Assembly (NCBI RefSeq): GCF_040802235.1
Contig: NC_133158.1
Location: forward strand, 42,288,001-42,352,000
From: Manis javanica
Lineage: Eukaryota > Chordata > Mammalia > Pholidota > Manidae
Length of the DNA stretch: 64,000 nucleotides
Direction of reading: 5' to 3'
In this document: positions 21,835-56,600 of the stretch, piece after piece
Position numbering within the stretch: position 1 is the stretch's first letter
Layout: each line of letters starts with the position of its first letter
Notes under the pieces: model-generated
Database searches by the model: none
What the model saw: only the letters and a program-made list of their open reading frames with translations
Told to the model about the DNA's origin: nothing
Position numbers and translations under genes: made by a program

Positions 21835-21846
21835 CTGTCATTTTTA
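21835..21846. repeat. Target-site duplication of the broken full-length L1 (left copy)
   Basis: ctgtcattttta here is repeated at 28067-28078 on the other side of the element. Confidence 0.75.
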
Positions 21847-22516
21847 AAAATTAAGGTATCATTGATATACAATCTTATGAAGGTTTCACGTGAGGAACAT
21901 TGTGGTTACTAGATTCACACATATTATTGAATCCCCCCACCTCCCACCCCATTGCAGTCACTGTCCATCAGCATAGTAAGATGCTATAGAGTCACTACTT
22001 GTCTTCTCTGTGCTATACTGTCTTCCCCGTGAAATCCCTACAATATGTGTGCTAATCATAATGCCCGTTAATTCACTTCTCCCTCCCTCCCACCCACGCT
22101 CCCCATCCCCTCCCCTTTGGTAACCGCTAGTCACTTCTTGGAGTCTGTGAGTCTGCTGCTGCTTTGTTCCTTTAGTTTTGCTTCATTGTTATAGTCCACC
22201 AATGGGTGAAATCATTTGGTACTTGTCTTTCTCTGCCTGGCTTATTTCACTGAGCATAATACCCTCTAGTTCCATCCATGTTGTTGCAAATGGTAGGATT
22301 TGTTTTTTTTTCTTGTGATTGAATAATATTCCATTGTGTATATGCACCACCTCTTCTTTATTCATTCATCTACTGATGGACACTCAGATTGCTTCCATTT
22401 CTTGGCTATTGTAAATAGTGCTGCAATAAACATAGGGGTGCATATGTCTTTTTGAATCTTGTATTTGTTTTCTTTGGGTAAATTCCTAGGAGTGGAATTC
22501 ATGGGTCAAATGGTAT

Positions 22517-25422
22517 TTATATTTTTAGTTGGTTGAGGAACCTCCATACTTTCCACAATGGTTGAACTAATTTACATTCCCACCAGCAGTGTAGGAGGGT
22601 TCCCATTTCTCGGCATCTGAGCCAGCATTTGTTGTTCCTTGTCTTTTCGATGTTGACCATCCTAACTGGTGAGAGGTGATATCTCATTGTAGTTTTAATT
22701 TGCATTTCCCTGATAATTAGGGATGTGGAACATCTTATCATGTGCCTGTTGGCCATCTGAATTTCTTGTTTGGAGGACTGTCTGTTCAGATCCTCTGCAC
22801 ATTTTTTAATCAGGTTATTTGCTTTTTGGGGGTTGAGGCATGTGAGCTCTTTATATATTTTGGATGTTAACCCCTTATCAGATGTGTCATTTATGAATAT
22901 ATTCTCCCATACTATAGGATGCCTTTTTGTTCTACTGATGGTATTCTTTGCTATACAGAAAGTTTTTAGTTTGATGTAGTCCCATTTGTTCATTTTTTAT
23001 TTCTTTCCCTTGCCTGAGGAGATGTGTTCAAGAAAAAGTTGCTCATGTTTATATTCAAGAGAGTTTTGCTTATGGTTTCTTCTAAGCGTTTTATGGTTTC
23101 ATGACTTACATTCAGATCATTGATCCATTTCGAGTTTACTTTTGTGTATGGAGTTAGACAGTAATCCAGTTTCATTCTCTTACATGTTGTTGTCCAGTTT
23201 TGCCAACACCAGCTGTTGAAGAGGCTGTTGTTTCCCCATTGTATATCCATGGCTCCTTTATCATATATTAATTGACCATATATGTTTGGGTTTATATCTG
23301 GGCTCTCTATTCTGTTCCACTGATCTATGGGTCTGTTCTTGTGCCAGTACCAAATTGTCTTGATTACTGTGGCTTTGTAGTAGAGCTTGAAGTTAGGGAG
23401 TGTAATCCCCCAGCTTTATTCTTCCTTCTCAGGATTGTTTTGGCTATTCAGGGTCTTTTCTGGTTCCATATGAATTTTAGAATTATTTGTTCTAATTCAT
23501 TGAAGACTGCTTTGGAATTTTGATAGGGATTTCATTGAATCTATAGATTGCTTTAGGCAGGATGGCCATTTTGACAATATTAATTCTTCCTATCCATGAG
23601 CAGGGGATGTATTTCCATTTATTGGTGTCTTCTTTAATTTCTCTCATGAGTGTCTTGTAATTTTCATGGTATAGATCTTTCACTTCCTTGGTTAGGTTTA
23701 TTCCTTGGTATTTTATTCTTTTTGATGCAATTGTGAATGGAATTGTTTTCCTGATTTCTCTTTCTGCTAGTTCATTGTTAGTATATAGAAAATCAACAGA
23801 TTTCTGTGTACTAATTTTGTATCCTGCAACTTTGCTGAATTCAGTTATTAGTTGTAGTAGTTTTGGAGTGGATTCTTTAGGGTTTTTTATGTACAATATC
23901 ATGTTATCTGCCAACAGTGACAGTTTAACTTGTTCCTTGCTAATCTGGATGTCTTTTACATCTTTGTGTTCTCTGATTGCCGTGGCTAGGACCTCCAGTA
24001 CTATGTTGAATAAAAGTGGGGAAAGTGGGCATCCCTGTCTTGTTCCTGATCTTAGAGGAAAAGCTTTCGGCTTCCTGCTGTTTAATATGATGTTGGCTGT
24101 GGGTTTGTCATATATGGCCTTTCTTATGTTGAGGTGCTTGCCCTTTATACCCATTTTGTTGAGAGTTTTTATCATGAATGGATGTTGAATTTTGTCGAGT
24201 GCTTTCTTAGCATCTATGGAGATGATTATGTGATTTTTGTCCTTTTTTTTGATGTGGTGTATGATATTGATGGATTTCCAAATATTGTACCATCCTTGCA
24301 TCCCTGGAATAAATCCTACTTGATCATCATGATGGATGATCTTTTTGATGTATTTTTTGAATTCTGTTTGCTAATATTTTGTTGAGTATTTTTGCATCTA
24401 TGTTCATCAGGGACAATGGTCTGTAATATTTTTTTTGTGGTGTCTTTTACTGGTTTTGGTTATTAGTTTGGAAGTATTTTCTCCTCTTCTACTTTTTGGA
24501 AAATTTCAAGGAGGGTGGTATTAGGTCTTCTCTAAATATTTGATAAAATTCATCAGTGAAGCCATCTGTTCAAGGCATTTTGTTCTTAGGTAGTTTTTTG
24601 ATTACCAATTCAATTTCATTGTTTTATTAGCATATAGTTTTTCATAGTATTCTCTAATAATTATTTGTATTTCTGTAGTATCCATAGTGAAGACAAATGA
24701 AAATAATAACTCCTTTTTCATTTCTCCTTTTTCCTTTTTCATTTCTGATTCTGTTTATGTCTGTAAACTCTCTTTTTTTCTTGATAAGTCTGGCTAGGGT
24801 TTATCTATTTTGTTTATTTTCTCAGAGAACCAGCTCCTGGTTTCATTGATTCTTTCTATTGTTTTGTTCTTCTCCATTTCATTTATTTCTTCTCTGATCT
24901 TTATTATGTCCTTCCTTCTACTGACTTTGGGCCTCATTTGTTCTTCTTTTTTTAGTTTCATTAATTATGAGTTTAGATTGTTCATTTGGGATTGTTCTTT
25001 CTTGAGGTAAGTCTTTATTGCAATATACTTCCCTTTTAGCACAGCCTTTGCAGCATCCCACAGATTTTTTGCGATGTTGAGTTATTATTTTCATTTGTCT
25101 TCATGTATTGCTTGACCTCTATTTTAATTTGGTCATTGATACGTTGATTATTTAGGAGCATGTTGTTAAGCCTCCATGCATTTGTGGTTTTTATTGTTTT
25201 CTCTGCATAATTTATTTCTAGTTTCATACCTTTGTGGTCTGAGAAGCTGGTTGGCACAATTTCAATCCTTCTAAATTTACTGAGGCTCTTTTTGTGGCCT
25301 AGTATGTGATCTATTCTGGAGAATGTTCCATAACCACTTGTGTATTCTGATGATTTTGGGTGAAGTGTTCTGTAGATGTCTGTTAGGTCCATCTGCTGTA
25401 ATGTGCTTTTCAGTGCCTCCAT
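22517..25422 (-). pseudogene. L1 ORF2 pseudogene (broken)
   Basis: At least five separate open pieces (22517-22993, 22990-23250, 23492-24301, 25036-25422) line up with the intact ORF2 of the neighbouring L1, with stops and frame changes between them. The longest piece, 269 residues, holds the palm region ([29 protein letters not shown]). The catalytic aspartate pair is changed to Asp-Asn. It could not encode an active reverse transcriptase. Confidence 0.9.
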
Positions 25423-26368
25423 CTCCTTACTTATTTTCTGTCTGGTTTATCTGTCCTTTGGAGTGAGTGGTGTTTTGAAGTCTCCTGAAATGAATGCATT
25501 GCATTCTATTTCACCCTTTAATTCTGTTAGTAGTTGTTTCACATAATTAGGTGCTCCTATATTGGGTGCATAGACATTTAGAATGGTTATATCCTCTTGT
25601 TGGACTGGCCCCTTTATATAATGTCCTTGTTTGTCTCATTACTTTCTTTGTTATGAAGTTTATTTTGTCTGATAAAGTACTGCAACTCCTGCTTTTTCTC
25701 CCTATTATTTGCATGAAATATCTTTTTCCATCCCTTCACTTTTAGTCTGTGTATGTCTTTGGGTTTGAAGTGAGTCTCTTGTAGGCAGCATATAGATGGG
25801 TCTTGTTTTTATATCCATTCAATAACTCTATGTCTTTTGATTGGTGCATTCAGTCCATTTACATTCAGGGTGATTATCGATAGATATGTACTTATTGCCA
25901 TTGCAGGCTTTAGATTAATGGTTACCAAAGGTTCAACAGTCTTCTAACAGTCTAACTTAACTTGCTGATTGTGCTATTTCAACCACAATCTAAAGGTTCT
26001 TTTTTTCTCTCCCTTCTTTTTCTTCCTCCTCCATTCTTTATATATTAGGTCTCATATTCCAAACTCTTTGTGTATCCCTTGACTGACTGTGAGTAGTTGA
26101 TTTAATTTTGCATTTGCTTAGTACTTATTTGATCTACTTTTTTTACTGTGGCTTTATTTTCTTTGGTGACAGCTACTTAGCTTTAGGAGCACTTCTATCT
26201 ATAGGAGTCCATCCAAAATACACTGTAGAGTTGGTGTGTGGGAGGTAAATTCCCTCAACGTTTGCTTATCTGGAAATTGTTTAATTCCCTCTTCAGATTT
26301 TGAGGATAATCTTGCTGGGTAGAGTATTCTTGGTTGAGGTCCTTCTATTTTTCATTGCATTAAATATA

Positions 26369-27065
26369 TCATTCCACTCCCTTCTGGCCTGTACTGTTTC
26401 TTCTGAGAAGTCTGATGATAACCTGATGGGTTTTCCTTTGTGTGTGATCTTTTTTTCTCTCTCTGGCTGCTTTTAAGTCTCTGTCCTTATTCTTCATATT
26501 TGCCATTTTAATTATTATATGTCTGGGTGTTGTTTTCCTTGGGTCTCTTGTATTGTGAGATCTGTGTACTTCCATGGCCTGAGGGACTATTCCCTTCTCC
26601 AGACTGGGGAAGTTTTCTGCAATTATTTCCTCAAAGAGACTTTCTATCCCCTTTTCTCTTTCTTCTTCTTCTGGTACCTCTTTAATGTGAATATTCTTCT
26701 GTTTGGATTGGTCACATAGTTCTCTTATTATTCTTTCATTCCTAGAGGTCCTTGTTTCTCTCTGTGCCTCAGCTTCTTTGTATTCCTGTTCTCTAATTTC
26801 TATTTAATTTAGTCTCCTCTACCTCATCTAATCTGCTTTTAAATCCCCCCATTTTAAGTTTCATTTCAGAACTGTATTTTTCAAAGTTTCTGTCTCTTTC
26901 TTGAAGTCCTTCTTGATATCTTGAATATTTTTCTGTAGCTGCATGAGCATGTATGATTTTTATTTTGAAATCTTTATCAAGATGATTGGTGATTTCAGTT
27001 TCACTTAGCTCTCTTTCTGGTGTTTGAGGGATTTTGGTTTGTACCAGATTCTTTTGCCATTTCAT
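26369..27065 (-). pseudogene. L1 ORF1 pseudogene (broken)
   Basis: Two short minus-strand pieces match ORF1. 26793-27065 is the N-terminal/coiled-coil side (TEITNHLDKDFKIKII). 26369-26575 is the C-terminal side (RDPRKTTPRHIIIKMA). Frame breaks separate them. Confidence 0.8.
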
Positions 27066-28078: not shown

Positions 28079-28274
28079 TTTTTTGCTTTTTTGACTTATG
28101 CTGAATGCTGTGGTCTCTGCCTCTATCTGACCACCACCTAGATGTGGCTTCCAAACATGGACCCCATGCACTCCAAGTTTCATGCCATCCTTTTGGCAAG
28201 TGGGCTTAGAAAGGAAGGCTATCCCCCACTTAGATAATTTTTTAAAATTCTCATATGGTATCTTCTAATAGTAT
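28079..28274 (-). mobile_element. Left flank: unique DNA then old L1 fragment
   Basis: From about 28200 ('taaaattctcatatggtatc') the text is the complement of an old L1 ORF2. It continues on the far side of the young L1 at 37036, showing that the young element inserted into it. Confidence 0.5.
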
Positions 28275-28290
28275 TACAATTTCATTTTTT
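28275..28290. repeat. Target-site duplication of the intact L1 (left copy)
   Basis: tacaatttcatttttt here is repeated perfectly at 37020-37035. The 16-bp length and T-rich start fit L1 target-primed insertion. A perfect duplication points to a recent insertion. Confidence 0.92.
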
Positions 28291-28314
28291 TTTTTTGAGA
28301 GGGCATCTCTCATA

Positions 28315-28320
28315 TTTATT
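28315..28320 (-). terminator. Polyadenylation signal of the intact L1
   Basis: AATAAA on the minus strand, about 20 bases upstream of the poly(A) start. The related copy at 54.6 kb has AATAAG at the same place. Confidence 0.8.
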
Positions 28321-28441
28321 GATCAAATGGTTGTTAACAACAATAAAATTCAGTATAGGGGGGTCAACGCTCAATGTACAATCATTAATCCATCTCAAGC
28401 CTAATTCTCGTCAGTCTCCAATCTTCTGAAGCATAACGAAC

Positions 28442-28499
28442 AAGTTCTTACATGGTGAACGAATTCTTACATAGTGAATAAATTCTTACATGGTGAACA
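28442..28499. repeat. Three tandem 19-20 bp repeats in the L1 terminus
   Basis: The units read like 'aattcttacatggtgaac', three in a row with one to three differences. The short copy at 54.4 kb has only two full units. Confidence 0.9.
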
Positions 28500-29256
28500 G
28501 TACAAGGGCAGTCATCACAGAAACTTTCGGTTTTGATCATGCAATATGACCTATAAACAATCAGGTCAAATATGAATATTCGTTTGATTTTTGTACTTGA
28601 TTTATATGTTGATCCCACATTTCTCCTATTATTATTATTATTTTTATTTTTAATAAAATGCTGAAGTGGTAGGTAGATGCAAGATAAAGGTAGAAAACAT
28701 AGTTTAGTGCTGTAAGAAGGCAAATGTAGATGATCAGATGATCAGGTGTGTGCCTATGGACTAAGTATTAATCCAGGCTAGACAAGGGCAGCAAGACATC
28801 CACGGATGCAGAAGATTTCTCTCAAAGCAGGGGGGGTGAGGTTCTGAGCCTCACCTCTGTTGATCCCCAAATTCTCACCTGATGGCCCCCCTGCGACTGT
28901 GCCTGTCTTAGGTTGTTCCTCCCTTGAGGAATCTTACCCGTCTCTGGCTAACCAGTCATCTTCCGGGGCCATACAGGGAAATGTAAAGTTGGTAAGTGAG
29001 AGAGAAGCCATATTGTTTGCAAAGGTTAGCTTTTTACTTCTTTGCAGATTTATGCCCTGTGGCTTCTATGCCCAGCATTGGTCTCGAGGTATCTTTACCA
29101 CCTGGAGGAATTATGATACTCGGTAAATTCGATCTGAGGCACGAATTCTATTTAAGGGTTGTAATTAGGAAGGAAGAAGAAAAGCTATAGATGTAGCCTA
29201 TGAAGGAAACTTGGGAGGATTGATTATTTCTTTGACATATCTTCTTGTATAGTACC

Positions 29257-29698
29257 TTAAGTATGTATAGGTTTTAAACTACTAACTAATTTGCACACAC
29301 ATATTAACATAATAGGAATACGGTGACATAAACAAAGCAAATCTATAATTACCATCCATCTCCAGTGAAGCCAAGAAAACCAGTTAGGCACCCTAGGCAT
29401 TTGTGAAAATTTATCTATGATATGATGGATATTGTCCAACTGTACTTGAACCATCAGACAAATTAAAGCAGCCCATTTCTGGGATCTGTTCACATCCCAT
29501 ATGTTCTTTTAACCATAGATAGTCTATAGTCATGAGATTTTGGGGTGCTACAACTTGCACCCCTCCCAACTCCTGGTTGAGTTCCAACAGTACAGATTCG
29601 GTCAAATTCGTTGTCTCACTGTATTCACATGCCAGCCTAGACATCTCCCTCCTCATTCTTATGGCAAGTCCAGGAGACGGTGGGCTGGATGCAGCCAC
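29257..29698 (-). pseudogene. Retroviral envelope TM-subunit fragment inside the L1 3' extension, decayed
   Basis: Two overlapping minus-strand pieces in different frames (29698-29411 and 29493-29257) together look like the ectodomain of a gammaretrovirus-type transmembrane envelope subunit. In order there is a heptad-rich helix (NLTESVLLELNQEL), an immunosuppressive-domain-like segment, a disulfide-loop motif in which one cysteine of the expected CX6CC is glycine, a short helix (VQLDNIHHIIDKFSQM) and an aromatic membrane-proximal WFSWL. A frame change falls near 29440, between loop and helix. The surface subunit and fusion peptide were not found. It cannot make an envelope protein. It lies in the same orientation as the L1 and is transcribed as part of its 3' UTR. 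The assignment rests on motif pattern only. Confidence 0.68.
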
Positions 29699-29936
29699 AA
29701 CCGCAGCATCGTCCGGATCCCTGTGGAGGCTTTTTGATGATCATCCCCCGGCACAAGTCCTCCAGAGAGTGCTGATGCCGGAAGCTCCTCCTCATATCGT
29801 ATCTTAGTTCATTTTCTGGGTATCCAAGCTAGGCCTTGATCTTCTGCATAGAAACAAAGAGACCTTTTGCCCACACTTTGACATGCCCTCTATACCACTG
29901 TGCAGAACTCATTGGAGGTCAGCACACAGTAACTGC

Positions 29937-29958
29937 TTTTTTTTTTTTTTTTTTTTTT
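29937..29958 (-). repeat. Internal A-tract 2 of the L1 3' extension
   Basis: 22 T on the plus strand (22 A in the L1 sense). It separates a 146-base segment from the envelope-containing part and looks like a buried poly(A) tail. Confidence 0.9.
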
Positions 29959-30104
29959 AATTAAGAGAAAGGAATATTATCAGAAAAGAGTACCTCCATA
30001 GCTGATCATCTGACACCCTTTAAGTGATCAACATTAAGGATATTTAAAGCATGCGTTGATCTTTGATTTACCAATAGTTTTATCCTGTTAAGGAGTAATC
30101 CCCC

Positions 30105-30132
30105 TTTTCTTTCTTTCTTTTTTTTTTTTTTT
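30105..30132 (-). repeat. Internal A-tract 1, probable ancestral L1 tail
   Basis: T-rich on the plus strand (A-rich in L1 sense). It directly follows sequence that aligns with the extreme 3' end of the older L1 at 21846-21960, where that element stops. It therefore marks the old L1 3' terminus. Confidence 0.75.
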
Positions 30133-30473
30133 AAATTTTTAATCTACACTTACATGAAGAATACTATGTTAACTATGCTCTCCCCTATATCAGGTCCCCC
30201 CTAACAACCACATTACGGTTACTGTCCATCAGCTTAGCAAAATGTTGTAGAGTCACTACTTGTCCTCTCTGTGTTGTGCAGCCCACCCTCCCCTTGTTCC
30301 CTCCCCCCCATGCATGCTAATCTTAATACCCCCCTTCTTCTTCCCCCCCCTTATCCCTCCCTGCCCACCCATCCTCCCAGTTCCTTTCCCTTTGGTACCT
30401 GTTAGTCCATTTTTGGGTTCTGTAATTCCACTGCTGTTTTGTTCCTTCAGTTTTTCCTTTGTTCCTATACTCC
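30133..30473 (-). other. Ancestral L1 3' UTR with polypurine stretch
   Basis: About 340 bases after the ORF2 stop. It is G-rich in sense (plus strand 'cctccccccc' and 'cttcttcccccccc'), as in L1 3' UTRs generally. It aligns with the older copy around 21900-22150 ('actgtccatcagc', 'agagtcactacttgtc'). Confidence 0.8.
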
Positions 30474-33400
30474 TCAGATGAGTGACATCATTTGGTATTT
30501 CTCTTTCTCCGCTTGGCTTATTTCACTGAGCATAATACCCTCCAGCTCCATCCATGTTGCTGCAAATGGTTGGATTTTTCCACTTCTTATGGCTGAGTAG
30601 TATTCCATTGTGTATATGTACCACATCTTCTTTATCCATTCATCTACCGATGGACATTTAGGTTGCTTCCAATTCTTGGCTATTGTAAATAGTGCTGCGA
30701 TAAACATAGGAGTGCATCTGTCTTTCTCAAACTTGATTGCTGCGTTCTTAGGGTAAATTCCTAGGAGTGGAATTCCTGGGTCAAATGGTAGGTCTGTTTT
30801 GAGCATTTTGATGCACCTCCATACTGCTTTCCACAATGGTTGAACTAATTTACATTCCCACCAGCAGTGTAGGAGGGTTCCCTTTTCTCCACAGCCTCGC
30901 CAACATTTGTTGTTGTTTGTCTTTTGGATGGCAGCTATCCTTACTGGTGTGAGGTGATACCTCATTGTAGTTTTAATTTGCATTTCTCTGATAATTAGCG
31001 ATGTGGAGCATCTTTTCATGTGTCTCTTGGCCATCTGTATTTCTTTTTTGGAGAACTGTCTGTTCAGTTCCTCTGCCCATTTTTTAATTGGGTTATTTGT
31101 TTTTTGTTTGTTGAGGCGTGTGAGCTCTTTATATATTCTGGACGTCAAGCCTTTATCGGATCTGTCATTTTCAAATATATTCTCCCATACTGTAGGGTTC
31201 CTTTTTGTTCTATTGATGGTGTCTTTCGCTGTACAGAAGCTTTTCAGCTTAATGTAGTCCCACTTGCTCATTTTTGCTGTTGTTTTCCTTGCCCGGGGAG
31301 ATATGTTTGAGAAGAGATCACTCATGTTTATGTCTAAGAGGTTTTTGCCTATGTTTTTTTCCAAGAGTTTAATGGTTTCATGACTTACATTCAGGTCTTT
31401 GATCCATTTTGAGTTTACCTTTGTATATGGGGTTAGACAATGGTCCAGTTTCATTCTCCTACATGTAGCTGTCCAGTTTTGCCAGCACCATCTGTTGAAG
31501 AGACTGTCATTTTGCCATTGTATGTCCATGGCTCCTTTATCACATATTAATTGACCATATATGTTTGGGTTAATTTCTGGGGTCTCTAATCTGTTCCACT
31601 GGTCTGTGGCTCTGTTCTTGTGCCAGTACCAAATTGTCTTGATTACTATGGCTTTGTAGTAGAGCTTGAAGTTGGGGAGTGAGATCCCCCCTACTTTATT
31701 CTTCTTTTTCAGGATTGCTTTGGCTATTCGGGGTCTTTGGTGTTTCCATATGAATTTTTGAATTATTTGTTCCAATTCATTGAAGAATGTTGCTGGTAAT
31801 TTGAGAGGGATTGCATCGAATCTGTATATTGCTTTGGGCAGGATGGCCATTTTGACGATATTAATTCTTCCTAGCCATGAGCATGGGATGAGTTTCCATT
31901 TATTAGTGTCCCCTTTAATTTCTCTTAAGAGTGACTTGTAGTTTTCAGAGTATAAGTCTTTCACTTCTTTGGTTAGGTTTATTCCTAGGTATTTTATTCT
32001 TTTTGATGCAATGGTGAATGGAATTGTTTTCCTGATTTCTCTTTCTATTGATTCGTTGTTAGTGTATAGGAAAGCTACAGATTTCTGTGTGTTAATTTTG
32101 TATCCTGCAACTTTGCTGTATTCCGATATCAGTTCTAGTAGTTTTGGAGTGGAGTCTTTAGGGTTTTTTATGTACAGTATCATATCATCTGCAAATAGTG
32201 ACAGTTTAACTTCTTCTTTACCAATCTGGATTCCTTGTATTTCTTTGTTTTGTCTGATTGCCGTGGCTAGGACCTCCAGTACTATGTTAAATAACAGTGG
32301 GGAGAGTGGGCATCCCTGTCTGGTTCCCGATCTCAGTGGAAATGCTTTCAGCTTCTCGCTGTTCAGTATAATGCTGGCTGTGGGTTTATCATATATGGCC
32401 TTTATTATGTTGAGGTACTTGCCCTCTATTCCCATTTTGCTGAGAGTTTTTATCATGAATGGATGTTGAATTTTGTCAAATGCTTTTTCAGCATCTATGG
32501 AGATGATCATGTGGTTTTTGTCTTTCTTTTTGTTGATGTGGTGGATGATGTTGATGGATTTTCGAATGTTGTACCATCCTTGCATCCCTGGGATGAACCC
32601 CACTTGGTCATGGTGTATGATCCTTTTGATATACTGTTGAATTCTGTTTGCTAATATTTTATTGAGTATTTTTGCATCTACATTCATCAGGGATATTGGT
32701 CTGTAATTTTCTTTTTTGGTGGGGTCTTTTCCTGGTTTTGGTATTAGGGTGATGTTGGCTTCATAGAATGAGTTTGGGAGTATTCCCTCTTCTTCTATTT
32801 TGTGGAACACTTTAAGGAGAATGGGTATTATGTCTTCTCTGTGTGTCTGATAAAATTCCGAGGTAAATCCGTCCGGCCCCGGGGTTTTGTTCTTGGGTAG
32901 TTTTTTGATTACTGTTTCAATTTCTTTGCTTGTAATTGGTTTGTTTAACTTTTGTGTTTCTTCCTTGGTCAGTCTTGGGAGGTTGTATTTTTCTAGGAAG
33001 TTGTCCATTTCTTCTAGGTTTTCCAGCTTGTTGGCATATAGGTTTTCATAGTAGTCTTTAATAATTCTTTGTATTTCTGTGGAGTCTGTCGTGATTTTTC
33101 CATTCTCATTTCTGATTATGTTGATTTGTGTTGACTCTCTTTTTCTCTTAATAAGTTGGGCTAGAGGCTTATCTATTTTGTTTATTTTCTCAAAGAACCA
33201 GCTCTTGGTTTCGTTGATTTTTGCTATTGTTTTATTCTTCTCAATTTTGTTTATTTCTTCTCTGATCTTTATTATGTCCCTCCTTCTGCTGACTTTAGGC
33301 CTCATTTGTTCTTCTTTTTCCAGTTTTAATAATTGTGATGTTAGACTATTCATTTGGGATTGTTCTTCCTTCTTCAAGTGTGCCTGGATTGCTATATACT

Positions 33401-34316
33401 TGCCTCTTAAGACTGCTTTCGCTGCATCCCACAGAAGTTGGGGCTTAGTGTTGTTGTTGTCATTTGTTTCTATATATTCCTTGATCTCTATTTTGATTTG
33501 TTCATTGATCCATTGATTATTTAGTAGCATGTTGTTAAGCCTCCATGTGTTTGTGAGCCTTTTTGTTTTCTTTGTAGAATTTATTTCTACTTTCATACCT
33601 TTGTGGTCTGAAAAATTGGTTGGTAGAATTTCAATATTTTGGAATTTACTGAGGCTCTTTTTGTGAGCTAGTATGTGGTCTATTCTGGAGAATGTTCCAT
33701 GTGCACTTGAGAAGAATGTATATCCTGTTGCTTTTGGATGTAGAGTTCTATAGATGTCTATTAGGTCCATCTGTTCTAGTGTGTTGTTCAGTGCCTGTGT
33801 GTCTTTACTTATTTTCTGCCCGGTGGATCTATCCTTTGGGGTGAGTGGTGTGTTGAAGTCTCCTACAATGAATGCATTGCAGTCTATTTCCCTCTTTAGT
33901 TCTGTTAGTATTTGCTTCACATATGCTGGTGCTCCTGTATTGGGTGCATATATATTTAGAATGGTTATATCCTCTTGTTGGACTGAGCCCTTTATCATTA
34001 TGTAGTGGCCTTCTTTATCTCTTGTTACTTTCTTTGTTTTGAAGTCTATTTTGTCTGATATTAGTACTGCAACCCCTGCTTTCTTCTCACTGTTGTTTGC
34101 CTGAAATATGTTTTTCCATCCCTTGACTTTTAGTCTATGCTTATCTTTGGGTTTAAGGTGAGTTTCTTGTAAGCAGCATATAGATGGGTCTTGCTTTTTT
34201 ATCCATTCTATTACTCTATGTCTTTTGATTGGTGCATTAAGTCCATTTACATTTAGGGTGACTAGTGAGAGATATGTACTTATTGCCATTTCAGGCTTTA
34301 GATTCGTGGTTACCAA
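30474..34316 (-). CDS. L1 ORF2p: endonuclease and reverse transcriptase (1280 aa, intact)
   Basis: ORF2p nicks the target and reverse transcribes L1 RNA from the nick. Residues about 10-245 are the APE-type endonuclease with its active-site set in place: [27 protein letters not shown] and SDHKGM. The reverse transcriptase follows, with [14 protein letters not shown], the CPLSPLLFN block and the catalytic FADD in [12 protein letters not shown]. Near residue 1150 the Cys/His segment [20 protein letters not shown] is complete. The length is near the 1275 of human ORF2p. The nominal start is at 34316, but the ATG nine codons later (34289, MAISTY) aligns better with other L1 starts and is an equal candidate. 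It lies 168 bases after ORF1, so translation probably depends on reinitiation, as in other L1s. No stop or frameshift interrupts it. Confidence 0.97.
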
Positions 34317-34484
34317 AGGTTCAAGGTTAGCTTCTTTAGTATCTTACTGCCTAACTTAGCTCGCTTATTGAGCTGTTATATACACTGTCTGGAGATTCTT
34401 TTCTTCTCTCCCTTCTTATTCCTCCTCCTCCATTCTTCATATGTTGTGTGTTTTGTTCTGTGCTCTTTTTAGGGGTGCTCCCAT
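34317..34484 (-). other. Inter-ORF spacer of the intact L1
   Basis: 168 bases between the ORF1 stop and the nominal ORF2 ATG, longer than the 63 bases of human L1. It is purine-rich in sense. No other ORF is present. Confidence 0.85.
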
Positions 34485-35501
34485 CTAGAGCAGTCCCTGA
34501 AGGATGCCCTGTAGAGGTGGTTTGTGGGAAGCAAATTCCCTCAGCTTTTGCTTGTCTGGGAATAGTTTGATCCCACCATCATATTTAAATGATAGTCGTG
34601 CTGGATACAGTATCCTTGGTTCAAGGCCCTTCTGTTTCATTGCATTAAGTATATCATGCCATTCTCTTCTGGCCTGTAGGGTTTCTGTTGAGAAGTCTGA
34701 TGTTAGCCTGATTGGTTTTCCTTTATAGGTGACCTTTTTCTCTCTAGCTGCCTTTAAAACTCTTTCCTTGTCCTTGATCCTTGCCATTTTAATTATTATG
34801 TGTCTTGGTGTTGTCCTCCTTGGATCCTTTCTGTTGGGAGTTCTGTGTAATTCCATGGTCTGTTCGATCATTTCCTCCCCCAGTTTGGGGAAGTTTTCAG
34901 CAATTATTTCTTCAAAGACACTTTCTATCCCTTTTCCTCTTTCTTCCTCTTCTGGTATCCCTATAATACGAATGTTTTTCCTTTTGTATTGGTCACATAT
35001 TTCTCTTAGTGTTGTTTCATTCCTGGAGATCCTTTTATCTCTCTCTATGTCAGCTTCTATACGTTCCTGTTCTCTGGCTTCTATTCCTTCAATGGCCTCT
35101 TGCATCTTATCCATTCTGCTTATAAATCCTTCCAGGGATTGTTTCACTTCTGTGATCTCTTTCCTGACATCTGTGATCTCCTTCCGGACTTCATCCCACT
35201 GCTCTTGCATTTTTCTCTGCATCTCATCCCACTGCTCTTGCATTTTTCTCTGCATCTCATCCCATTGCTCTTGCATTTTTCTCTGCATCTCTGTGAGCAT
35301 GTTCATGATTTTTATTTTGAATTCTTTTTCAGGAGGACTAGTTAGGTCTGTCTCCTTCTCAGGTGTTGTCTCTGTGATCTTTGTCTGCCTGTAGTTTTGC
35401 CTTTTCATGGTGATAGAGATAGTTTGCAGAGCTGGTACAAGTGACTGCTGGAAGAGCTTCCCTTCTTGTTGGTTTGTAGCCTTTTCCTGGGAGACTAGCA
35501 A
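34485..35501 (-). CDS. L1 ORF1p: RNA-binding chaperone (338 aa, intact)
   Basis: ORF1p coats L1 RNA as trimers and acts as a nucleic-acid chaperone. The sequence shows a basic N-terminal part (about 1-70), then a long coiled coil (about 70-165). That coil contains three near-perfect copies of the 11-residue unit EMQRKMQEQWD in tandem, followed by VRKEITDVRKEITEV. The RRM region (about 175-260) has KRKNIRIIGIPEEEE and DPRRTTPRHIIIKMA. The C-terminal domain (about 262-338) has YKGKPIRLTSDFSTETLQAR and ARLSFKYDGGIK. The length equals human ORF1p (338). The start ATG at 35501 is the first in frame and directly follows the 5' UTR. The tandem units are also visible in DNA as 33-bp repeats (about 35188-35290), so they arose by recent slippage. 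Confidence 0.96.
   Translation of the reverse strand: MLVSQEKATNQQEGKLFQQSLVPALQTISITMKRQNYRQTKITETTPEKETDLTSPPEKEFKIKIMNMLTEMQRKMQEQWDEMQRKMQEQWDEMQRKMQEQWDEVRKEITDVRKEITEVKQSLEGFISRMDKMQEAIEGIEAREQERIEADIERDKRISRNETTLREICDQYKRKNIRIIGIPEEEERGKGIESVFEEIIAENFPKLGEEMIEQTMELHRTPNRKDPRRTTPRHIIIKMARIKDKERVLKAAREKKVTYKGKPIRLTSDFSTETLQARREWHDILNAMKQKGLEPRILYPARLSFKYDGGIKLFPDKQKLREFASHKPPLQGILQGLL
35188..35290 (-). repeat. 33-bp tandem repeat in L1 ORF1 coiled coil (three units)
   Basis: The plus strand repeats 'catcccactgctcttgcat...ttctctgcatct' three times with one mismatch (cactg/cattg). It encodes the 11-residue unit three times and keeps the frame. Confidence 0.95.
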
Positions 35502-35769
35502 CCTCTAGTTGCTTGTGCTGGGCAGCTGTGCGCAGACAGGGCTTCTGCTTCCCGCCCAGTTGCTTTGGGGTTTATCTCCGCTGTTGCTGTGGGCTTGGCC
35601 TGGCTGGGGCTGTTCCTCCAAAATGGTGGAGCCCCGTTGGATGGGGAGCGGCCAGGAGGCTATTTATCTCCGTAAGGGGCCTCTGTGCTCCCTGCTGCCC
35701 AGGGGGTTAGAGTGCCCAGAGATCCCCAGATTCCCTGCCTCTGGTCTAAGTGACCTGTCCTGCCCCTTT

Positions 35770-36770
35770 AAGACTTCCAAAAAGCACTCTCCAAACCAAA
35801 ACAACAACAGCAACAATGAGAGAGGGAACAGAAAGAACAAAAAAAAAAAGGAAAAAACAAGCGATTTTTTTTTTTTTTTCCTCAGTTGCCGGTCCCAGGC
35901 ACCCACTCACTGGTCCTGCTGCCCTGTCTCCCTAGCACCAGGGTCCCTGTCCTTTCAAGGTTTCCAAAAAGCACCCACTCACCGGTCCCGCAGGGAAGCA
36001 ACACTCGATATTCTTTGTCCTCAGGCACTGGTCCCAGGCACCCGCTCACCAGTCCCGCCGCCCTGCCTCCCTAGCACCGGGGTCCCTGTCCCTTCAAGGC
36101 TTCCAAAAAGCACTCGCCAAAAAGAGAGAAAAAAAGGGGAAAAACACGCGATTTCTTCCGTCCTCAGGTGCCGGTCTCAGGCACCCACCCACCGGTCCCA
36201 CAGGGAAAAACGCGGGATATTCTTTGTCCTCAGGTGCCGGTCCCAGGCACCCGCTCACCAGTCCCGCCGCCCTGCCTCCCTAGCACCAGGGTCCCTGTCC
36301 CTTTTAGGCTTCCAAAAAGCACTCGCAGAAAAGGAAAAAAAAAAGGGGAAAAACGCGCGATTTCCTCTGTCCTCAAGTGCCGGTCTCAGGCACCCGCCCA
36401 CCGGTCCCGCAGGGAAAAACGTGGGATATTCTTTGTCCTCAGGCGCCGGTCCCAGGCACCCGCTCACCAGTCCCGCCACCCTGCCTCCCTAGCACTGGGG
36501 TCCCCGTCCCTTCAAGGCTTCCAAAAAGCGCTCGCCAAAAAGAGAGAAAAAAAAAAAAAAAGGAAAAACGCGCGACCTGCTCCGTCCTCAGGCACTGGTC
36601 TCAGGCACCCGCCCGCCGGTCCCGCAGGGAGAAACGCGGGATATTCTTTGTCCTCCGGCGCCGTTCCCAGGCACCTGCTCACCGGTCCCGCCACCCTGCC
36701 TCCCCAGCAACGGGGGCCTGTCCCTCTAAGGCTTCCAAAAAGCGCTCGCCAAGAAAAAAAAAAAGACCGC
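35770..36770 (-). repeat. Tandem monomers of about 210 bp in the L1 5' UTR
   Basis: The anchor 'cttccaaaaagc' recurs near 35772, 35961, 36100, 36309, 36518 and 36732. The spacing is about 189, 139, 209, 209 and 214. The inner three units are nearly identical, with CpG-rich text (ggtcccgc, cgcgatt) separated by A-rich runs. The two at the ORF1 side are shorter and more diverged. This is like mouse L1 5' UTR monomers in design, not in sequence. Confidence 0.9.
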
Positions 36771-36995
36771 TCTGGTTTCTCTCCACCAGCCGGGAGCCGG
36801 GGGGAGGGGCGCTCGGGTCCCGCCGGGCCGGGGCTTGTATCTTACCCCCTTCACAAGGCGCTGGTTCCTTGCAGGTGTGGATGTGGTCTGGATGTTGTCC
36901 TGTGTCCTGTGGTCTCTATTTTAGGAAGATTTTTCTTTGTTATATTTTCATAGCTCTATGTGTTTTTGGGAGGAGATTTCCACTGCTCTACTCAC

Positions 36996-37004
36996 GCCGC
37001 CATC
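36996..37004 (-). promoter_or_regulatory. YY1-like site at the L1 5' end
   Basis: GATGGCGGC in sense, 16 bases from the element's first base. In human L1 a YY1 site at this place sets the transcription start. The neighbouring L1 has the same core at plus 28039-28047. Confidence 0.65.
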
Positions 37005-37019
37005 CTGGCTCCGCCTCTC

Positions 37020-53600: not shown

Positions 53601-56600
53601 TCAGCGAGCGGTCAGCACGCGGCGGGACCGGCCTCATCAGCCAACCGTCGGTCACCCCTACAGAGGACAGTGCACCACACCAAGCCCTGCCACCCTCCCA
53701 AGAGGCCCCTGAATACCCTGACTGCCAACAGGTTCTAGCAGCCAAACTGCCTTTCCTGAGACCTGCTGTTCATCACACGCAGGCCCTGTCACTTGGGCCA
53801 CCTCAGTTTGCCACAGCAGCCCTCCTCCCAGCCTTCTAGCCCCCCACAAATGCAGATGTTTCATGCATGAGTTTTCTGAGGGCTTCCTCCCTGGAATATC
53901 CATTGGCAGAGACTTTGAACCGTCAGCTTTAAAGGCCTTTATGTATAAACTGGGAAAGGTGGTATATTTTTTTTCCAAAGAGAAGGCCCATCAGTTATGT
54001 TATATTCTCTAAGGCATCTGGGATCCAAAATGAGTGAACCTGCTGCCTTTAGGTCTTTTGCCCTCTCTGACACTTAATTGGAGCTCAGAAGATGATGAGG
54101 GTACAGGGTGAGGCTAGGCCTGAGTGGGAGTAGACTGTGAGCAGAAGAAGGTGCCCTGGGCCAGCACCCCTGGGGGTGAGGGGCCATTTGAGGGTGTGGA
54201 TGCTTGGTCTAGAAGTGAGCAGAAGTGAGGAAGAAGCCTGGAATCAGAACAGACCAGCAGTGCCCCCCAAACACCCCTTTGTAATTGATCAAACAGCGCA
54301 ATATGCAAAATTCAGACAAACTAGACTGTCAGAATTCACTTTATCAAGGGTGTCTTTGCCTTGGAAAAAGATCCACTAGGATCATAATACGTGATCAAAA
54401 CCAAAAGTTTCTGTGTGACTGCCCTTGTACTGTTCACCATGTAAGAACTTATTCACTATGTAAGAACTTGTTCGTTATGCTTCAGAAGATTGGAGACTGA
54501 CGAGAATTAGGCTTGGGGTGGATTAATGATTGTGCATTGAGCATTGAGTCCCCTATACAGAATTTTATTGTTGTTAACAACTATTTGATCAATAAGTATG
54601 AGAGATGCCCTCTCAAAAAAAAAAAAAAAAACAACAACAGCAACAAAAAAGATCCACTAGGAGTTTCCTTCAGGTTGGGAATTTCCAGTGACTTTAAAGC
54701 ATTTTCCCATATAGGCGTCCTGATCTTCAGTTTCGATAACAAATTTTCTTTCTCTTTCCACAAAATTCAGTAACTTTTTGGTATGTGTTGTCTTGTATGG
54801 GTTCTCACACCACCAGCACTACTCAACGTGTAGTGTGCCATTTCCATCTGTAGTTTCAATAACTGTTTAATTATAAGAAATTTTCTTGTAATTGTATGTT
54901 TGAACATCAATGCATCCTCATATGCGACTACTGTCCTATTGTTTCTCTCCTGAGCATTGTGTCTCTACCTGATTGCATTTTGTGTGGCCACAGCATTGCT
55001 TCTGTGCACTCTTGGGGATTTGTTTGGTCATGATATACTCCGTTCAGAACTTTTCTGATGTGCGCTGGTCATCTGCCAATGGTTTTCCCTGTTCACTTCC
55101 CCCCTTCCTTGGCCTGCTGAGCACCCAGAAGGATTCTAGAAGGGCTCAGCTAGCCCAGCTACTATGAATGGACTTTATCACTATGTTCACTCAATATGCT
55201 CATTTATCCATGACTTAGAAGTCACGGTGTGATGGGTTTTCCATAGGGAATGTGCACAGATGCAGACATGGGTCATCAGGACAGAGCCTACAGTGTTTAC
55301 AAGCACCGTCCTTCATTCTTGGCATCCAAAGGGGTAAACTGGGGGTAAGCAAGACACATGTGCAAAATATGTCCTCCAGCTGAGTAGCTTAGTCAAGCAT
55401 TGTAGGGAAACAACCACAGCAGTAAAGATTAGCTCAGAGAGAGAGTGATGAAATCATGAGATAGGGAGTGTGTGCCAGCAGCTGAGGGCAGACGCAGAGT
55501 GACGAGCTGTCAATGCTATACTCACCGTCCAAATGCCAAATGCTTGCCCCAGAATAAACAGGACTGACCTTATGTCATACCAGCTTACTACTTACAATTA
55601 TTCCTCCATCTTCCATGAAGCATCACTCAAATGTGCACATATAAAGCCTAAGAGAATGATGTAGCTAGCTGTGTGCATCCCCTGTGTACAACTCACGTGC
55701 TGTCTTCCTGAACAACAGTGCCCTAGGGAGCCTGGGTGGGGAAATTAAGGTGGGATCTCCTTGGTCGATCTGCCTGTCTGGTGTGTAGAGTCTGCTGGGG
55801 CTTCACCTACCATCAGGAGTGAGACACTGCTGCAGCCAGGACTTCCCGAAGACCTGGTCCACCCGCTCCCCGTGGCGCACCACCAAGACACTCCTCCTCG
55901 CTATAGAAGCCTGAGACAGTGGAAGGGAAGGAACATGCAATTTAACACGCACACGGTTAGATCTGGGCAAACAGCATCTCTCTTAGGCCTCCAACACCTG
56001 GCCTAGCATCCCTCCGTAGTGAATCCTTCGAACATTATCCACGTCTGTACATACAAACTGTAATATAATTGATAGTACGTATTATCTATATATGCAGATA
56101 ACTGCCATCAGCGTCCCTGTGGCCCAGTACATTGAGAGCATGTGTGCCAGATACTGGGGAATAAGCTACAGTCCATGGATTCTCCCTTAGGGGCATCAGG
56201 TCCCACTGAGACCAAGGGACAAACATGAGAAGATGAATTACAGAAGGAAGAGGATGGCAGAGCTGACAGTGGCTTGGGGGACTTAATGGGAGACACATGC
56301 AATGCCTTCAGAGCACCACACCCCGGAGAAGGGACTCATCTGCAACACAGCCGTGCAGCTGACCATTCACTCTCAGGTCTGCGTCTGCCATGCCGGTGGA
56401 GCCTAGAGGGTCTGTGCTGACTACCCGCTTCCTCTAGCACTTCTTCAGTTTATCAGCAGGACCAAGCGGCCTCCCCACTGGTGGGGAAATGGTTTGGTTA
56501 GGGGCTGTTGAGAAGGAGGGGACACTGGGGAAAGTAGGGCTGGGGGTAAATGTCACCCATCTCACATGTGTTCTTGGAGCCAGCATTGTGGCAGCTCCTG

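Follow-up and report, generated by a model that had tools for sequence, protein, structure and literature searches.

What raises the question at this locus is the 3' end of a LINE-1 (L1) retrotransposon, which continues for 1.8 kb beyond its own 3' untranslated region (UTR) in sequence of retroviral appearance. The element lies on the minus strand of a 64,000-nucleotide stretch of the Manis javanica genome (contig NC_133158.1, positions 42,288,001 to 42,352,000, hereafter the window; G000:C3:42288001-42352000 in our numbering of the 2.56-Gb assembly that holds it, in which genomic searches were made). We favour, at a probability of roughly 0.87, the explanation that it belongs to a young L1 family of the pangolin, the RNA of which terminates with a captured 3' module of retroviral origin, made up of a possible pol end, an envelope transmembrane subunit (TM), a purine tract and a segment resembling the U3 and R regions of a long terminal repeat (LTR). 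The module lies inside complete insertions made by target-primed reverse transcription (TPRT), is present in the copies examined and terminates at an AATAAA of its own.

The target-site duplication (TSD) of the window L1, AAAAAATGAAATTGTA, stands at 37035-37020 and 28290-28275, and because it encloses the whole insertion, the 1.8-kb extension is part of the retrotransposed unit and not flanking DNA. TSDs, poly(A) tails and the 5' truncation of some copies, in the window and among the copies fetched from the genome, support LINE-1 insertion by TPRT. The body of the element is laid out as follows:

28285..37019, minus strand: complete L1 insertion including the extension, with the TSD on both sides, GGCGGAGCCAGGATGGCGGCG at the 5' end and poly(A) at the 3' end
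35971..36752, minus strand: tandem units of the 5' UTR, about 209 bp, 3.7 copies
34485..35504, minus strand: open reading frame 1 (ORF1), open, 339 codons (PF02994 2e-25, PF17490 4e-20)
30474..34343, minus strand: ORF2, open, 1289 codons (PF00078 6e-47, PF03372 4e-24)
30135..30473, minus strand: ancestral-type L1 3' UTR, matched by the window's older extension-less L1

The LINE-1 domain set is present, with the RNA-recognition-motif-like and C-terminal domains of ORF1 and the endonuclease and reverse transcriptase of ORF2, and the best match of the ORF1 protein is a protein of Manis javanica (92%, with 91% of the query covered). The only deviation from the LINE-1 features tested is at the 3' end: LINE-1 elements end in their 3' UTR, and here 1.8 kb follow the 3' UTR, in the window and in 20/20 young copies fetched. 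The older L1 at about 21846-26846 in the window, whose best stretch is 83% identical, has no extension: it stops after the ancestral-type 3' UTR.

The original prediction had described the L1 3' UTR (30473-30135), an A-tract and then 1.8 kb in the same orientation, and all of this is present on the minus strand, inside the TSD-bounded unit. So are the purine tract (28642-28620), the LTR-like segment (28619-28297) and the AATAAA (28320-28315) that it placed at the end; the extension itself runs on the minus strand from 30104 to 28297, its 3' end, and poly(A) follows. Its parts, in the order of the RNA, are:

about 30105..30134, minus strand: A/GAAA tract before the extension, with shorter A/GA-rich forms in old copies
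29960..30104, minus strand: 145-bp segment opening the extension
29741..29936, minus strand: segment before the TM, possibly the C-terminus of the pol integrase
29224..29740, minus strand: retroviral envelope TM region, frame broken, cysteine motif CX6GC
28620..28642, minus strand: purine-rich tract preceding the LTR-like part
28297..28619, minus strand: LTR-like U3-R segment, starting TGTGGGATC, with AATAAA at 28315-28320

The A/GAAA tract at 30105-30134 is probably the remnant of the ancestral L1 poly(A). A second A-run (29959-29937) was considered as an old poly(A) tail and rejected; since it has only 8-14 bases in the old copies where it is readable (12/23), we take it to be an A-run that has grown. 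The tract at 28620-28642 would be a polypurine tract, and 28297-28619 the U3-R part of a retroviral LTR. The U3-like part holds a 19-bp tandem repeat (28438-28499), in 3.3 copies here and 2.2 copies in an older tail at 54433-54473. An Rfam scan of 28200-30500 gave a single match, at E 0.6, below the cut-off.

Is the joint a property of this locus or of a family? A search with 28297-30104 returned 1351 first-look candidates (unconfirmed copies), 40 of which were scored over their length. All 40, the window's own included, are 99-100% identical from base 1 or 2 to base 1808, so that restriction of the extension to a single locus, which would have overturned the original prediction, is excluded; one further match listed covers 50 bases. 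We fetched 20 of the 39 other scored loci with about 7.6 kb upstream, and every one of them has the extension attached to L1 sequence: in 14 the alignment starts no more than 5 nt from the window L1's 5' terminus, and in four it starts at the variable 5' UTR, 457-607 nt in; the remaining two are a 5'-truncated copy and a nested pair. The expectation that L1 copies with ORF2 would carry the extension elsewhere in the genome is borne out by these 20/20 loci, and no provirus was seen among the 23 TM copies described below. A stop-to-stop ORF2 frame of 1289 codons is found in nine of the 20, eight of which also have a frame for ORF1, 328 or 339 codons long. Pairs of copies differ on average by 0.51% in ORF2 (20 copies), by 0.57% on the env side of the extension and by 0.55% in its LTR-like part (21 copies). 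All 22 ends (20 young loci plus the window) share one site, after which comes poly(A) or an A-rich tail. The recurrent joint, the low, ORF2-like divergence and the common end bear out the claim that a hybrid of L1 and the env/LTR-like segment became mobile, and the family is young and probably active. The L1 3' UTR (30135-30473) has a mean pairwise divergence of 1.45%, above that of ORF2 and the extension (0.5-0.6%). Two copies on different chromosomes (L015 and L022) carry an extra 18-19 bp (CCAGCAAAGCACATT) after the poly(A), followed by a second poly(A), which is a later 3' transduction within the young family.

An assembly artefact, or an endogenous retrovirus (ERV) fragment nested by chance beside one L1, would leave a joint of this kind at one place. 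The L1-extension joint recurs on many chromosomes, in old as well as young copies and with TSDs where these were examined; no point in favour of such an accident was found, and the idea, already refuted, has practically no chance of being right.

The original prediction had called the TM region of the extension a decayed gammaretrovirus-type TM. The open piece at 29411-29740 (minus strand) matches the TM ectodomain structure of avian sarcoma/leukosis virus (ASLV; 4jpr, E 2e-6) and 25 database proteins at 66-96% identity; the env hit anticipated from profile searches did not come from Pfam, where the same piece gives only a chance-level match (Mor, E 0.1). A database relative with an intact frame (P0132) matches ASLV TM 4jpr at 5e-14 and then filovirus GP2, and a profile built from eleven database relatives finds 96 proteins, some of which carry PF00429 or PF03708 (avian ENV1, for example). 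Despite the poor Pfam signal, the env identification stands because the TM matches ASLV structures and database relatives. What we take to be the fusion peptide, the immunosuppressive domain (ISD), the CX6CC motif and the membrane span of a gamma-type TM were seen by eye in relatives and old copies; the window copy has CX6GC instead of CX6CC, and its frame is broken. Judged by its sequence, then, the fragment is a retroviral envelope TM, of gamma type in its layout (as read by eye), with the alpharetroviral ASLV as its nearest solved sequence. The TM, the broken frame and the gamma layout of the original prediction are thereby retained, whereas the best match is alpharetroviral; and the decay is a feature of the window copy, older copies being often open (18/23, chosen by score). 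Among viral contigs, from which records of the window's own genome were possibly excluded, there was no relative of the TM alignment and no match to the tail pattern.

Older copies place the joint further back in time. A search with the intact relative P0140 gave 32,346 first-look candidates, of which the best 150 were scored, all with E below 1e-80; by our own count 125 of these list no internal stop, and 23 were fetched. L1 sequence is joined to 21 of the 23. In 19 the L1 3' UTR lies upstream, in the same order as in the window (L034 and L041 have just the first 84 bases of it), and in L040 it is the L1 5' UTR that is joined to the captured module. L038 has ORF2 joined to the segment before the TM, apparently with no GT-AG; this joint is apparently a deletion or a template jump. 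Two copies, L029 and L030, share 88-89% identity with the window L1 over everything from a point inside ORF2 to the end. From the MKKE methionine onward, 18/23 have no stop in the TM frame, so the older copies show the L1-extension joint together with a TM frame that is often open. L030 has a single 225-codon open frame that runs from a weakly integrase-like stretch through a fusion-peptide-like stretch, ISD, CX6CC, membrane span and tail, and compared with structures it matches ASLV TM 4jpr at 2.8e-13, filovirus GP2, and syncytin-2 at 8e-4. Because little sequence separates the integrase-like stretch and the TM in this copy, the surface subunit appears to be absent from the captured module. 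In L029-L031 a homopolymer A-run before the fusion-peptide-like stretch varies in length and sets which upstream frame enters the TM. At about 3430-3450 of L031 the insertion has its end in the A-rich last part of the TM frame and not at the poly(A) site of the tail, as if primed internally.

The other two fetched copies, L033 and L036, are 5'-truncated insertions that start inside the tail, each with its own TSD, and one more insertion of this kind lies in the window:

54377..54613, plus strand: older copy of this 3' end, 5'-truncated and flanked by a TSD of its own, AAAAAGATCCACTAGGA; 86-87% identity

That the tail alone serves as the 3' end of these three insertions would agree with its having first been an independent L1-mobilised retroposon, similar to SINE-R, which an L1 acquired later. 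5'-truncated L1 insertions would look identical, however, 21/23 TM copies are joined to L1, and the other two start at different places (23 of the 32,346 first-look candidates having been examined), so we regard a prior retroposon as improbable.

The hybrid could have arisen in two ways. An ancestral L1 may have adjoined a sense-oriented provirus, or it may have switched template onto it; its own poly(A) signal would have been bypassed, transcripts would have stopped at the retroviral site, and the resulting L1-retroviral hybrid would have founded the lineage. Its RNA would be a normal L1 substrate, with ORF1p and ORF2p acting in cis through the poly(A), so that the module would need only to supply a good poly(A) signal. 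Read-through of the adjacent provirus seems somewhat the likelier of the two, because at the joint an A-tract leads into sequence that is in sense and keeps the proviral order. In template switching, the L1 reverse transcriptase would have copied an ERV RNA first during TPRT and then jumped to the poly(A) of the L1 RNA, producing the hybrid in one step and in the same order of L1, A-tract, ERV 3' end and poly(A); chimeric insertions of L1 with other RNAs have been reported (PMC13174262). Nothing specific speaks against this route, except that the copied piece of ERV RNA would then have to begin with the 145-bp segment and the part before the TM, and we hold it as a tentative second choice. The two routes leave the same structure, and sequence without the donor cannot separate them.

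Several observations count against the captured-module interpretation as a whole. The donor provirus was not found, none of the 23 fetched TM copies lying in a provirus (two LTRs with gag, pol and env). ORF2 and extension distances are uncorrelated among 19 young copies (Mantel r -0.05, p 0.59; 0.06, p 0.40), which is expected of a star-like family and yet gives no support for joint descent within the young family. The LTR assignment is made solely from layout (purine tract, TG start and AATAAA), and what is said of RNA is read from genomic DNA. The segment before the TM is possibly the C-terminus of the pol integrase, by a weak, sub-threshold similarity: two of the three old-copy open frames scanned match PF00552 below the cut-off (E 0.019 in L030, 2758-3435, and 0.098), and two smaller pieces of the segment give no PF00552 match. 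Pfam on its own also hardly recognises the TM, the only env matches among six database relatives being PF00429 at E 0.016 (one of the six) and GP41 at E 0.2, and those of three old-copy frames PF00429 at E 0.042 and CoV_S2 at E 0.011-0.025, all below the cut-off. Finally, open frames are over-represented among the TM copies examined, since these were selected for a high protein score. The observation behind the original prediction is confirmed and its interpretation partly supported.

Some old copies look like retrocopies of spliced RNAs, with joints of the kind that splicing would make between L1 donors and acceptors within the module. The sites concerned are, in the window copy (a slash marks the splice point):

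36844..36845, minus strand: GT of the 5' UTR splice donor (GAAGGGG/GTAAGA), joint seen in old copy L040
30397-30398, minus strand: possible splice donor GT in the L1 3' UTR (AACAG/GTACCA)
30018-30019, minus strand: splice acceptor AG inside the 145-bp segment, joint seen in L040
29844-29845, minus strand: splice acceptor AG (TTTGTTTCTATGCAG) in the segment before the TM

In L034 and L041 the L1 3' UTR, ending in ...GGACTAACAG, is joined to AGGATCAAAGCC. The same donor word is followed by GT in three of the five unspliced old copies in which it was found (L029, L032 and L039; TT follows in L031 and L042) and in the window copy, and the acceptor side shows a pyrimidine-rich run and CAG in 7/7. 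Genome-wide, this junction has 98 matches with at most 3 mismatches, 39 of them exact, and a control with the reversed pattern has none; the 98 may be one subfamily or the result of repeated events. L040 joins roughly 171 nt from the start of the 5' UTR to the 145-bp segment (donor GAAGGGG/GTAAGA as in the window, acceptor TTAAAG/GG); a TSD, AAAATCTAAGCCATGG, flanks the copy, and it ends in the tail, following a short additional transduction. This spliced copy (L040/L052) has an extra stretch with AATAAA between the poly(A) and the TSD, a 3' transduction. From its structure L040, a single copy, looks like the retrocopy of an RNA without ORF1 and ORF2, that is, of an env-type subgenomic RNA. 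All four splice dinucleotides are kept in the window copy, which is itself unspliced. L034, L041 and L040 are retrocopies with a GT-AG deletion of L1 sequence, the definition of a spliced integrated retrotransposed element (SpIRE), and the window copy is not.

Such joints invite a bolder reading, in which the lineage was for a long time a three-gene element: the captured TM frame, viral splice acceptor and poly(A) site, driven by the L1's own promoter, would have yielded a spliced subgenomic env-type mRNA, a retrovirus-like mRNA strategy, and the youngest family would then have lost the TM frame. We consider this unlikely. That the TM frame was retained by selection, as a third L1 gene expressed from spliced RNA, is likewise doubtful. 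The 18/23 old copies with no stop from the MKKE methionine and the joining of 5' UTR to env-type sequence in L040 speak for it, as do a pooled pN/pS of 0.43 among the old copies' TM frames and the shared TM variants, of which 16 are synonymous and 22 nonsynonymous (p 0.04 when compared with neutrality). The pN/pS value is biased, however, because choosing copies by protein score lowers pN, and variants shared between copies are no different from singletons (Fisher p 0.23). Of the fixed changes that set the window copy apart from at least 90% of the old ones, 17 are synonymous and 34 nonsynonymous, numbers which, with an expected nonsynonymous share of 0.72, imply a dN/dS of 0.76 (p 0.22); the ORF2 control against three old copies, with 40 synonymous and 32 nonsynonymous, implies 0.24. 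The TM frame is broken in the window copy, and in L040 other ATGs stand ahead of the 148-codon TM frame. Purifying selection on the TM was rejected on the fixed changes, the likeness of shared variants to singletons and the bias in pN/pS; the fixed changes, set against ORF2, favour the reading that the TM frame is probably a passenger that decayed.

The nearest analogue of the captured 3' module would be the SINE-R part of SVA. SVA is a non-autonomous hominoid element composed of CCCTCT hexamers, an Alu-like part, a variable number of tandem repeats (VNTR) and SINE-R, the last derived from HERV-K10; in SINE-R a retroviral env piece and 3' LTR with a retroviral poly(A) signal form the 3' end of an element that L1 mobilises. 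The likeness is in the 3' module only; the pangolin module is part of an autonomous L1, in cis with two open ORFs, and its env is ASLV-like. L1s are also known to carry downstream DNA past their own poly(A) signal into new copies (3' transduction), and L1 tails transduced in this way are known as small source-specific families. The pangolin tail, by contrast, is found in 20/20 young fetched copies and in many old ones, and forms their regular 3' end.

Human SpIREs are retrocopies of spliced L1 RNA with a 5' UTR donor and intra-5'UTR or 5'UTR/ORF1 joints, as described in PMC5860796. The 5' UTR donor is shared with the pangolin copies, but these have acceptors in the captured retroviral part and use a 3' UTR donor too, and L040, unlike the human SpIREs described there, skips both ORF1 and ORF2. 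Recruitment of a new 5' UTR accompanies new L1 lineages and is a usual way in which L1 changes (PMC5872511); in the pangolin L1 the foreign sequence stands at the 3' end and not at the promoter end. In the Chinese pangolin, the available part of PMC12584738 describes alpha- and beta-like ERVs, among them two beta lineages whose env is gamma-type and whose LTRs measure 387 nt, and one ERV with an L1 inserted between env and the 3' LTR; it describes no L1 hybrid, and the comparison with our element is by description only. L1 chimeras with other RNAs have recently been catalogued in a paper in whose main text a term search turned up neither pangolin nor ERV (PMC13174262). An L1 with a retroviral tail was not found described in the literature searched, outside which most subscription papers lie, and the element may well be present in Dfam or Repbase as an L1.

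If an autonomous L1 did take up a retroviral 3' module and spread with it, the family would show in cis what SVA shows in trans, and would imply that the L1 machinery needs little beyond a good poly(A) end. Extension-less old L1s, old hybrids with an open TM frame and young hybrids with a broken one form a natural series, which lets one ask what a new 3' end gives an L1 and which bears on whether non-LTR elements take up viral genes and viral splicing.

Two minor observations may be added. In the same assembly 78 scored env matches to TLV_coat all extend to the last position of the profile, and many have a stop-free open frame of about 600-660 codons; these, listed by position only, are recently active gamma-type ERVs. 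The coiled coil of ORF1 contains an 11-codon (33-bp) unit present in three copies in the window (Tandem Repeats Finder, TRF, 35191-35291) and in most of L009-L028, and the ORF1 frames of 328 codons are consistent with two copies of it.
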